Assembly: GCA_900018345.1 (NCBI GenBank)
Contig: FCNA01000023.1
Coordinates: forward strand, 1 to 47,779
Direction: 5' to 3'
Origin: Clostridiales bacterium CHKCI006
GTDB taxonomy: Bacteria > Bacillota_I > Bacilli_A > Erysipelotrichales > Coprobacillaceae
Length of the DNA: 47,779 nt
This document shows, one piece after another, positions 10,158 to 47,779 of the stretch. Made by a program: the position numbers and the translations under genes. A model generated the notes under the pieces. The model worked only from the letters and a program-made list of their open reading frames with translations, was not told where the DNA came from and ran no database searches. Each line of letters begins with the position of its first letter. Within the stretch, counting starts at the first letter, position 1.

Positions 10158-11785
10158 AAGTTAAGCGGGTAGCTTGTCAGCGTGCATTGATAGTTTTTAT
10201 AAATGGCAATGACATACCGGTCAGATAGCTTTTCGATGCGAGCATAGCGATAGAGCTCATCACGGTTAAGCTGGTAAGCTTCTCCCAGGGCTTCAATCAC
10301 GGCATGACGTTCGTCGTGGGAGAGAGTTGGTTCGTACCAGCGCTTCATCCGTGTTTTGCAGCTTGCCAGATAATCGATGATCAGAAGATCGTGGTAGCGC
10401 CTATTTGTATAGTCGTCTAAGATCTGATAGAGCAGCTCGGGCTGATAACCATGGAAGGGGTAGTGGTGGGTTTTGTAGTACGTGCCTAAATCATGAAAAA
10501 AGGCAAATGCGGAGGGAACCTCATCCATGATAGCGCTCATACTGTCTTTAAAGCGGCCGCTGTTCCAGTATTTTTCTAGCATCTCCTCAGCCAGATGGAC
10601 TTCCTGAATCTCGGCTTCACTGATCCAGTCATTTTGCTGCATTTCATAAGGTGCTTCAAACTGATAAGTGTAGCCGTAATCATCGGCCTGATTGCGAAGC
10701 CCCGTCCCGCGCAGCATTTTCAAGAAGCCAAGCTGCAGTTCTTTGGCACGAAAAGCAAAGACATCATCGAAAGATTGGGCAAAGCGATCATATGTCTCAT
10801 ATGGCAATCCGGCAATCAGATCCAGGTGCAGGTCACATTTTCCTCCCTCGCTCAGGGCTTTGATGACCTCGCTGAGGCGTTCAAAATTTTGAATGCGTTT
10901 GACGGCTCGGTTGGTGGGCTCATAGGTGGATTGAATGCCGATCTCAAAACGCAGCAATCCTTTAGGCGCCTTTTCATTGATAAAATCGATGATTTTTTGT
11001 GGGAAGACATCGGCGTTGATCTCAAACTGGAATTGCTGATGAGGACCGTGATGCTTAAAGATGTAATCCAGGACAAACAGGGCGTGATCCATCTTGGCGT
11101 TGAAGCTGCGATCAAGCACCTTGATGATCCTGGCCGGACTGGCAAAAATCAAGTCCAGCTGACTGGCCAGATAGTCATGCGAATAAAAGCGCATGCCTTT
11201 TTCCAGACTGGACAGACAATACTGGCACAAAAAAGGACAGCCTCGACTGGTTTCAAAATAAAGAATGCGATGGGCCAGCTTGTCTTCGTCCTGTTTGAGG
11301 ATATAAGGGGAAGGCAGGGTCTCAATGTAACTGAGCGGTGTTTGAGGGATCTCGGTGGCGATATGCCCCTGATAGCTTACGCCGGGAATCGCGATGGCTT
11401 CTTTCTTTTCGAGGGCTTCAAGCAGCATCTCAAAAGTGATCTCGCCCTCTCCACTGAGCACATAATCGATGTCAAAATGGGTAAGGAAGTGTTCTGGCTC
11501 ATAACTGACTTCCGGTCCACCCAGCATGATGATGATCTCCGGTTTGGCTTGTTTTAATTGCTGGCAGATATCTTTGATTGGCTCGACATTCCAAATATAA
11601 GTGGAGAAAGCCACCGCATCGACCTGCTGTGAAAGAATATCCTGAACGATGTCTTCGATTTTTTGTTTAATGGTATATTCTTTCAAAGCGACATCGTGCT
11701 TAGGATAGCTGGCAACATAAAGCAGACGAATAGCTAGTGCCGTATGAATGTATTTGGCATTGAGTGTGGTGATGAGTGTTTTCAT
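10142..11785 (-). CDS. B12-binding domain radical SAM protein (DUF4080-type)
   Basis: A 547-residue protein. Residues 1-130 form a cobalamin-binding-like domain (TLITTLNAKYIHTALAIRLL, IIIMLGGPEVSYEP, DYVLSGEGE). A radical SAM core follows, with C183, C187 and C190 in RGCPFLCQYC for the 4Fe-4S cluster. The C-terminal third carries the family tail. The reaction is unknown; such proteins are often methyltransferases or tRNA/small-molecule modifiers. The start at 11785 was chosen because AAGGAGG lies 6 bases before it on the minus strand and the family begins KTLITTLNAKYIHT; the frame stays open further upstream without a site. It diverges from comFA. Confidence 0.88.
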   Translation of the reverse strand: MKTLITTLNAKYIHTALAIRLLYVASYPKHDVALKEYTIKQKIEDIVQDILSQQVDAVAFSTYIWNVEPIKDICQQLKQAKPEIIIMLGGPEVSYEPEHFLTHFDIDYVLSGEGEITFEMLLEALEKKEAIAIPGVSYQGHIATEIPQTPLSYIETLPSPYILKQDEDKLAHRILYFETSRGCPFLCQYCLSSLEKGMRFYSHDYLASQLDLIFASPARIIKVLDRSFNAKMDHALFVLDYIFKHHGPHQQFQFEINADVFPQKIIDFINEKAPKGLLRFEIGIQSTYEPTNRAVKRIQNFERLSEVIKALSEGGKCDLHLDLIAGLPYETYDRFAQSFDDVFAFRAKELQLGFLKMLRGTGLRNQADDYGYTYQFEAPYEMQQNDWISEAEIQEVHLAEEMLEKYWNSGRFKDSMSAIMDEVPSAFAFFHDLGTYYKTHHYPFHGYQPELLYQILDDYTNRRYHDLLIIDYLASCKTRMKRWYEPTLSHDERHAVIEALGEAYQLNRDELYRYARIEKLSDRYVIAIYKNYQCTLTSYPLNLKTTA

Positions 11786-43678: not shown

Positions 43679-43705
43679 AAAAACTATACAGGAAAGAGGA
43701 TGGAT

Positions 43706-45595
43706 ATGAATACGAGCTTATATTTTAAAAATTTAACCGATGAAGAAATTCTGCAAATATTAAATGTCATCAGTGTTCCCTGTTTAATGGAACCCCTTAA
43801 AAAACAGCCGCAGCGCTATTTAGGAAAGGGTCATAAGGGACAGTCTCTTTCAAGAGAAGCAGTGAATCATATTTATCTTAAATTCCTGAAAGCCAATGAC
43901 CTGGTTCTTTCTTTGTATCTCAGTGATTTAGTGGTAGATATCATTCACTTCTTTAAACTCAGTGACGGTTTTAAGCGCCTGTTGACAACAGATGATCCGG
44001 CTTATCCTGAGAAGCTGGCAAAGAAGATTCAAAAAAGACATTGTCCGATTACGGTCAATATGTTTATGCGCTTATTGGATGCACATTATCAGCCTGAGCC
44101 TGAACAGCCGTCTTATGATATTGAAATTGAGGAGATTGCACCAATCAAACAAGAGACAGTATCTGTCGATCAACCGGTCGTGCAAAAGACGGAGGACGAT
44201 CCAATCGATGAGAGCGTGATCGATGAATTCGAAAACAGTGACTTCTTTGATGTATTGCCTGAAGTAACGATAGGGGACGAACCGTCAGTTGCACCTGAAC
44301 CGGTTTCGTCAATGCCGATAACGGAACCTGAGACTGAAATAGAGGTGCCTGATCTGGATTTTATGGTTGAAGGGGAGATGCAGTCCACTGAAGCAAACCC
44401 GAAAGCTCTGTCGTTAGAAGCTACGCTTCCAGAAGCAGAAGCAGATAATGATAAGGATGAAACAACAGAGGATGTCATCAATGAGATGCCTAATTTGAAT
44501 GAAGCAGAGGAAGCGTCACTGCCTGAGATGGAAGCGGCCAATATAGCGCTCGATGTCGAACAGGATGGAGAAGAAGTGCCTGAACAGCCGGAATTCATTC
44601 AGGAGGAACCAATCGAGGAAGTTGACGCCATGTCCAGTCAGAAAAGTCAGTCAGAAACGCTCTCTGTTGAGAATGCCGAGATGACTGAGGTGTCGTCTGA
44701 AGAGCCTCATGGAGAAGAAGTGCCTGAACAGCCGGAATCCATTCAGGAGGAACCAATCGAGGAAGCTGACGTCATGTCCAGTCAGGAAAGTCAGTCAGAA
44801 ACGCTCTCTGTTGAGAATGCCGAAATGACTGAGGCGTCCTCTGAAGAACCTCAAGTGGTTTTTGAAGAAAAGAATGAAGATGCCTTGATCGAGGATGATC
44901 AGAAAATTGAACAACTGGAAAAAGAAATCTCCAGTCTGCAATATCAGATCATGAGCTTACAGATGGAAAATGAATCTTTGAAGGATGAGAATCGCGATCT
45001 GCTTTTCCAAGGCGAAGATGAAAGTGAAAAAGAATCTTTGCGTCAGGATATCCACAGCTTGGAAGAGGATAATGCCCATCTCAAAGAAGATATGGCCAAT
45101 CTGACCAGTCGTAATCAGGAATTAGAAAAGGAATTGGTGGATTATCAGACAGCTAAGGAAAATGAAAACCAGATGCGTCTGGAACTCAGAGATTATAAGA
45201 TCAAATATATCTCTTTGCAATCTGAATATGATCAGTTGCAGTATAAGTTGAAAAATGATAACAAACGTTTAAAAGAATTAGAAAATAAACAGCGAACGAT
45301 TCATGAAAGCAAGGAAGATTTGATGATGGCTTTACATGATCTGAACTGGTATAAAAAACAGTGGCATTTGCCCGGAGATGCGCCGATTCATCAGATTTGG
45401 GCCCATTTGAATAATGTCGAATCACAGAAACTGAAAGATCTGATGAAAAAATATGATCGCCTCGTCAAATCAGAAAAACAGGAGCAGGTCGAGGGCCTCA
45501 AGGAGATCCTGTTAGTGAAAGAAGCAATCTTGATTCTATTAAAGGCGAATCGTTCTGCCAAAAACAAAAATGAAAACACAGAGTCACCATTTTAG
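43706..45595 (+). CDS. Unknown acidic coiled-coil protein with internal duplication
   Basis: A 629-residue protein I do not recognise. Residues about 1-130 form a folded helical domain (LTDEEILQILNVISVPCLMEPL, SDLVVDIIHFFKLSDGFKRLL). Residues 135-390 are highly acidic and probably disordered (many Glu, Pro, Ser), including two adjacent 48-residue copies starting GEEVPEQPE. Residues about 395-545 are a long coiled coil (IEQLEKEISSLQYQIMSLQM), and the end carries LHDLNWYKKQWHLPGDAPIHQIW and a Lys-rich tail. No signal peptide or membrane segment. ATG 43706 is chosen for its spacing from GGAAAGAGG. It is a single-gene unit with promoter and terminator; a structural or scaffold role is only a guess. 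Confidence 0.8.
   Translation: MNTSLYFKNLTDEEILQILNVISVPCLMEPLKKQPQRYLGKGHKGQSLSREAVNHIYLKFLKANDLVLSLYLSDLVVDIIHFFKLSDGFKRLLTTDDPAYPEKLAKKIQKRHCPITVNMFMRLLDAHYQPEPEQPSYDIEIEEIAPIKQETVSVDQPVVQKTEDDPIDESVIDEFENSDFFDVLPEVTIGDEPSVAPEPVSSMPITEPETEIEVPDLDFMVEGEMQSTEANPKALSLEATLPEAEADNDKDETTEDVINEMPNLNEAEEASLPEMEAANIALDVEQDGEEVPEQPEFIQEEPIEEVDAMSSQKSQSETLSVENAEMTEVSSEEPHGEEVPEQPESIQEEPIEEADVMSSQESQSETLSVENAEMTEASSEEPQVVFEEKNEDALIEDDQKIEQLEKEISSLQYQIMSLQMENESLKDENRDLLFQGEDESEKESLRQDIHSLEEDNAHLKEDMANLTSRNQELEKELVDYQTAKENENQMRLELRDYKIKYISLQSEYDQLQYKLKNDNKRLKELENKQRTIHESKEDLMMALHDLNWYKKQWHLPGDAPIHQIWAHLNNVESQKLKDLMKKYDRLVKSEKQEQVEGLKEILLVKEAILILLKANRSAKNKNENTESPF
44567..44854 (+). repeat. Two tandem 144-base copies inside the coiled-coil protein gene
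   Basis: The first copy is 44567-44710 and the second 44711-44854, in frame and 48 codons each. Both encode GEEVPEQPE.IQEEPIEE followed by MSSQ.SQSETLSVENAEMTE, differing at only a few residues. This looks like a recent unequal-crossover duplication; copy number may vary between strains. Confidence 0.9.
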
Positions 45596-45743: not shown

Positions 45744-47228
<1,485 letters not shown>

Positions 47229-47248
47229 GGTGCGAAAGCACCTTTTTT
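47229..47248 (+). terminator. Terminator after the GH1 gene
   Basis: GGTGC-GAAA-GCACC (47229-47242) followed by six T residues, extended by AA/TT pairs at the base. Confidence 0.88.
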
Positions 47249-47302: not shown

Positions 47303-47386
47303 ACACTGAACTTGGTTATCTGATTCAGCCTTTTTTCTCTTCAATCTGATAAGTGAAAAGATGACTTGTGGAAAAGCACTTTGAAC

Positions 47387-47416
47387 TTGACAAAAATGCT
47401 GGGGGGGGGGTAAAAT
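47387..47416 (+). promoter_or_regulatory. Promoter with a ten-G tract in its spacer (candidate phase-variable promoter)
   Basis: TTGACA (47387-47392, perfect -35), an 18-base spacer containing ten consecutive G residues (47401-47410), and TAAAAT (47411-47416). Loss of one G would give the optimal 17-base spacer. No open reading frame of more than a few codons follows before the insertion sequence; the interval 47249-47631 holds no other gene I can support. Confidence 0.55.
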
Positions 47417-47468
47417 GTTGAATGTGGATAACATTTTATAACCGTGAGTAGTCTCGGAAACTCAGAAC

Positions 47469-47498
47469 AAAAAAAGCAGTCATCCTAGCCAAGGATGA
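47469..47498 (-). terminator. Possible terminator on the minus strand
   Basis: TCATCCT and AGGATGA pair around CTAGCCA-like loop bases (47480-47498) and on the minus strand seven T residues follow after a 5-base gap. It could end transcripts of the transposase gene. Confidence 0.4.
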
Positions 47499-47631
47499 TG
47501 AAAAAATGCTTAAACAGTCTAAAATCAGCGAAAGATGAAGTAGCTTTAGTAATCAGATACATAAAATCCAAAAAAAGTGCGCGCTGAAAACAACTAAGGA
47601 TATTCTTAATTTTTTTGAAGTGATGTTCTAT

Positions 47632-47778
47632 TTAGCCTTCTTGATTTGCTTGTTTATACCATGCATCAAGATGGATATTAATACATGCAAGCATTGTAAA
47701 GAATGAATATCTGGCAGTTGTGTGCGTATGCATGTACTCAACATTGTAATTGTTTAGGATACGGTTATTAACTCGTTC
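47632..47778 (-). CDS. DDE-type transposase, C-terminal fragment (cut by window edge)
   Basis: The last 48 codons and stop of a minus-strand gene that continues beyond the window. ERVNNRILNNY, then FFTMLACINIHLDAWYK, resembles the C-terminal end of DDE transposases, where a conserved Glu in an ERVNxR motif completes the catalytic triad. The family is not assigned. The reading frame differs from the fragment at the left end, so two different insertion sequence types may flank the window. Confidence 0.6.
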   Translation of the reverse strand, partial: ERVNNRILNNYNVEYMHTHTTARYSFFTMLACINIHLDAWYKQANQEG

Positions 47779-47779
47779 A

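Follow-up and report, generated by a model that had tools for sequence, protein, structure and literature searches.

The promoter and its surroundings

The window analyzed here is a single stretch of 47,779 nucleotides that makes up the entire contig C107 and ends inside an insertion sequence (IS). Toward this end, downstream of a GH1 6-phospho-beta-glucosidase gene, lies a promoter whose spacer contains ten consecutive G residues. The features of the region are as follows.

45756..47228, plus strand: GH1 6-phospho-beta-glucosidase gene, the upstream neighbour
47227-47244: terminator-like hairpin directly 3' of the GH1 gene
47387..47392, plus strand: -35 hexamer TTGACA, perfect (sequence and promoter scan)
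47393..47410, plus strand: spacer of 18 nt, aaaatgct followed by ten G (sequence)
47401..47410, plus strand: G10 homopolymer, the proposed slippage tract, adjoining the -10 box (sequence; geometry common to other genomes)
47411..47416, plus strand: -10 hexamer TAAAAT (sequence and promoter scan)
47411..47438, plus strand: inverted repeat TAAAATGTT-N10-AACATTTTA, perfect over 9 bp, lying over the -10 box and the expected start site
47440..47445, plus strand: one copy of the target-site duplication AACCGT, the other copy opening the flank on contig C114 (locus L143)
47446..47779, minus strand: right end of the IS, starting GAGTAGTCTCGGAAACTC and running beyond the contig end
47480..47498, minus strand: terminator-like hairpin at the IS end, on the transposase strand
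47632..47778, minus strand: last 48 codons of the IS transposase gene, putatively of DDE type

Direct reading of the sequence confirmed the initial annotation to the base: TTGACA and TAAAAT stand 18 bases apart with ten G inside, so that a mononucleotide tract of at least eight residues lies between recognisable -35 and -10 boxes. A promoter scan scored the pair as an 11/12 sigma-70-type match at 18-nt spacing, and loss of one G would, as had been pointed out, give the ideal spacer (18 nt with G10 becoming 17 nt with G9). No other run of at least six G or C occurs in the 47.8 kb of the window, and the claimed rarity of the tract extends to the whole 3.33-Mb genome, where it is one of two G10 runs, the second, on contig C42, having no -10 box behind it. 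Searching for the layout TTGACA-N4-10-G8-N0-5-TANNNT returned one match in the window versus none in 100 dinucleotide-preserving shuffles; the co-occurrence of G tract and promoter exceeds chance.

The hairpin directly 3' of the GH1 gene indicates that the G10 promoter opens a separate transcription unit. Near relatives of the GH1 protein include those of Holdemania, Solobacterium and an Erysipelotrichaceae MAG, names that point to Erysipelotrichales as the probable order of the window. The window had no match among plasmid records. Homologues of the intergenic region were sought in 60 relatives, none of them convincing over the promoter, and the short matches found around it were other poly-G promoters. 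Further upstream, the gene for a large acidic coiled-coil protein (43700-45595) holds two near-identical tandem copies of a ~130-bp segment at about 44572-44832.

The inverted repeat over the -10 box (1 match versus a mean of 0.02 in shuffles, with up to three mismatches allowed) suggests a candidate repressor operator at 47411-47438, through which a repressor might also act at the G10 promoter. A perfect DnaA box, TGTGGATAA (TTATCCACA, minus strand), lies inside the repeat at 47423-47431, and a near-perfect one is found upstream at 47367-47375. The DnaA box prompted consideration of an oriC or dnaA promoter, which was rejected: dnaA is located at C73:25302-26615, distant from the IS end on that contig.

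The insertion sequence and the reconstructed ABC-2 operon

The IS begins at 47446, 30 nt 3' of the -10 box. Contigs C107, C23, C12 and C73 have this right end in common, their sequences parting precisely at GAGTAGTCTCGG, position 47446 of the window. The 48-aa transposase tail has a full-length relative in Thermoanaerobacterium, itself a match to DDE_Tnp_1_6 below the curated cut-off, and through this relative left ends were located on three contigs of the genome (C114, C43 and C60), the interior of the element being missing from the assembly. With four right ends, three left ends and target duplications, this is a repeated insertion sequence with defined ends, putatively an IS1182-like DDE element. 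The duplications pair the right and left flanks as C107/C114 (AACCGT), C23/C43 (TGAAC) and C73/C60 (TAAGTAA), the last pairing restoring a response regulator gene followed by a membrane protein gene that is probably its sensor kinase. The G tract itself was considered as an IS component and rejected, as the IS copies start at 47446, 36 bases past the tract. Three of the four right ends (47446 and the copies on C12, C23 and C73) lie close behind a -10-like TATAAT or TTATAA, which looks like a preference for promoter regions.

Joining C107 and C114 at AACCGT gives TTGACA-18-TAAAAT and, after 48 nt containing AGAGGAGG, the ATG that starts a 298-aa ABC ATPase (DrrA/ABC_tran). The gene for a 408-aa ABC-2 permease overlaps that of the ATPase, and genes for a CsoR-like repressor and for a P1B metal ATPase come next. 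The adjacency of the two contigs is deduced from the 6-bp duplication and the coherent anatomy of the joined locus rather than from an assembled join. In this empty site, the ATG would stand 48 nt after the -10 box with a strong ribosome site, an arrangement now interrupted by the IS. The presence of AACCGT on both contigs points to a promoter that originally drove the ABC-2 ATPase/permease operon, and the position of the IS between promoter and ribosome site implies that the switch is now cut off from it.

In this reconstruction, the G10 promoter leads into an ABC-2 transporter operon and not into a surface-protein gene. A surface or host-interaction product is usual, though not obligatory, for promoters of the Neisseria porA type. 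The initial annotation had proposed identifying the downstream gene in relatives lacking the IS; the operon could be named, by way of the IS duplication on C107 and C114, while its relatives in G004, G005 and G019 (29-40% identity) have promoters without a G tract, that in G004 showing TTGACA with a plain spacer. In two other genomes, G041 and G254, an ABC ATPase likewise lies behind a G12 or G10 spacer.

Recurrence of the layout and the genes behind it

The layout is not confined to the window. The pattern scan found it in 23 of 315 genomes of the window's order (15 of 79 genera) and in 25 of 335 genomes of the same class outside the order, these 335 being part of a second sample of 392, which makes 48 carriers among the 650 genomes of order and class. 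The reversed-pattern control gave no match in either scan across the same 650 genomes. Geometry was compared over 81 distinct sites, comprising every site from the order and a share of the others. The spacer measured 17-20 nt in 70 of the 81, the tract adjoined the -10 box (0 nt) in 72, and 9 nt separated the -35 box from the tract in 52, so that the recurrent geometry is TTGACA, ~9 nt, G8-14 and the -10 box directly. Viral-contig matches to the identical pattern had spacers spread from 12 to 23, indicating that the tight 17-20 geometry is not imposed by the search pattern.

The converse comparison began with the tracts. In eight genomes selected for having layout matches, all 81 readable unique tracts of at least eight G were collected from both strands, and a tract was called in-spacer when it was spanned by a -35/-10 pair matching in 10 or more of 12 positions. 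This held for 39 of the 81, against a mean of 1.05 and a maximum of 4 with shuffled flanks (200 rounds) and 2 on the opposite (C) strand. The share by genome included 3/3 in G245, 4/6 in G039, 18/19 in G596 at the 9-of-12 level and 1/10 in the window's genome, the one being the window tract. Because the eight genomes were picked for matches, their in-spacer share cannot be read as an average for the class; picking by itself would hardly account for the strand asymmetry, and the reversed-pattern controls are free of such picking. A different arrangement was seen in G000 at C93:3158-3205 (L021, L145), where G8 stands behind a good sigma-A promoter and immediately ahead of an ATG; the tract thereby doubles as the ribosome site and may form a translational slippage switch.

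Secreted single-pass proteins, called by a simple and crude N-terminal rule, made up 44 of 74 distinct first ORFs behind the sites versus 23 of 123 control ORFs, which were other ORFs in the retrieved loci and of the same locus kind (p = 1e-8); 17 sites had no ORF satisfying the criteria. The excess persisted without G596 (31/61, p = 1e-5) and in the order alone (14/31, p = 0.004). Domain matches behind the sites included bacterial Ig-like, Listeria-Bacteroides repeat, VWA and LytR-CpsA-Psr domains as well as polysaccharide biosynthesis (Polysacc_synt_2), SIS, PTS IIC and ABC proteins. G596, a 1.0-Mb genome, carries 19 distinct G8-11 tracts (loci L258, L266, L274, L281 and L283-L297) that precede two signal-peptide protein families, MKKIVKK... 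and MKKIMMLATILVAGL..., and this set looks like a combinatorial surface-variation system. Several G596 contigs end at poly-G promoters. On a viral contig from another lineage (L219), TTGACATGATAC-G8-TATACT on the minus strand near 10314-10341 precedes an 889-aa protein resembling a YadA-type trimeric adhesin.

Tract length and interpretation of the promoter

At other loci of this layout, tract length appears to vary, although an assembly error in any single length is possible. Across sites, the tract ranges from 8 to 14 G. Two species that are 94% identical locally (L187 and L194) carry 11 and 10 G, with no difference in the adjoining ~45 bp on the upstream side and ~70 bp on the downstream side, and two viral contigs with 88% identity over 2.8 kb (L250 and L252) carry 9 and 15 G, their flanks otherwise agreeing fully over more than 70 bp before the tract and 80 bp after it; a search for further alleles of this viral-contig site returned just those two. 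Among the paralogous promoters of G596, whose flanks match, one family has 9 or 10 G and the other 9 to 11. A further pair of species (L190 and L191) both have G9 but within 3.5 kb of identical DNA, which makes the shared length uninformative on tract fixity.

Such tracts have precedents. The best-known promoters that switch by slippage are those of Gram-negative pathogens, treponemes and mycoplasmas. In Mycoplasma hyorhinis, a poly-A tract near the -10 box stands ahead of each member of the Vlp surface-lipoprotein family, an arrangement that resembles the G596 families rather than the window locus and uses poly-A where poly-G is found here. In the Bordetella fim promoters, a poly-C homopolymer alters the spacing and switches transcription; the spacing-changing homopolymer is shared with the present promoter, but the fim tract is poly-C upstream of the -10 box and the promoters are activator-dependent. 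Homopolymers of this kind have been surveyed (PMC1891110). A close likeness is to porA of Neisseria meningitidis, where the -35 and -10 boxes enclose a tract of about 9-11 G and expression is high at 11G, two-fold lower at 10G and much lower at 9G, a change of one G thus altering expression (PMC3639595). Whereas porA encodes a Gram-negative outer-membrane porin, the sigma-A promoter of the window is of Gram-positive type, has a perfect TTGACA and, by the reconstruction, belonged to an ABC-2 transporter operon. In Treponema pallidum, poly-G also occurs in promoters, those of tprE/G/J and of tp0126, the latter with the tract between -35 and -10 and best expressed at a total spacing of 17, the value predicted to be best here, and tprL tracts range from 7 to 11 G within one isolate (PMC7864442). 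These are spirochaete promoters of outer-membrane protein genes, and no sequence relationship is implied.

We consider it likely that the G10 promoter is a porA-type phase-variable sigma-A promoter that formerly belonged to the ABC-2 operon and has since been separated from it by the IS. DNA polymerase would slip in the G run and shift the distance between -35 and -10 by one base or more around 17 nt, and the change in spacing would turn transcription up or down. The ancestral promoter would have driven the operon of ATPase (298 aa) and permease (408 aa), and the IS would then have inserted between promoter and ribosome site, separating the switch from the operon. The candidacy for phase variation raised in the initial annotation gains support from the recurrence of the layout, the allele pairs with differing G number and the excess of secreted proteins downstream.

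A fixed structural element in the spacer (a protein site, or DNA that is stiff or A-form-like), setting promoter strength with no slippage switching involved, would equally lead one to expect the constant geometry, with the tract usually abutting the -10 box and TA following. We regard this as unlikely, since tract length differs between sites (8 to 14 G), is the sole nearby difference in the two allele pairs and varies among G596 paralogues with matching flanks (9 or 10 G, and 9 to 11), and since the secreted-protein enrichment fits phase variation. Much less credible still is chance or a sequencing or assembly artefact, for example two-colour poly-G miscalls. The site does lie ~370 bases from the contig end, and in short-read assemblies homopolymer lengths may be wrong by one or more. 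Yet promoter anatomy is present on both sides of the tract in the -35/-10 frame, neither the shuffles nor the reversed control over 650 genomes yielded the layout, and an artefact would not seek out promoter spacers, and those of just one strand.

A third alternative concerns the present state of the promoter and not its origin, and is compatible with the phase-variable reading. The promoter may be real and formerly phase-variable but now a relic, with nothing useful left behind it since the IS insertion and its tract drifting. The IS stands between promoter and ribosome site, the AACCGT flank lies on C114, and no promoter-like site facing outward toward the operon was found in the IS end, all of which favor a relic. 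Against this, neither promoter nor tract is damaged, and the insertion may have happened recently or be confined to a fraction of the population. We give the relic serious weight while leaning somewhat against it.

The single site in the window belongs to a known kind of promoter. The wider set is apparently undescribed as far as the open-access literature shows; no description of such a set in these lineages was found there. On a balance that tips slightly in its favor, we propose that in one class, made up of the window's order together with several related families, TTGACA-N9-Gn-TATAAT is a standard switch, deployed across the genome as phase-variable promoters of surface-protein, polysaccharide and transporter genes, and that in small genomes such as G596 the set covers two multigene secreted-protein families and allows combinatorial surface variation. 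Each listed site predicts a length-polymorphic tract, a point on which existing sequencing reads bear directly, and its state near 17-nt spacing would be the most active. If the proposal is true, members of a single clone would come to differ in surface and transport functions in many gut-type Gram-positive commensals.
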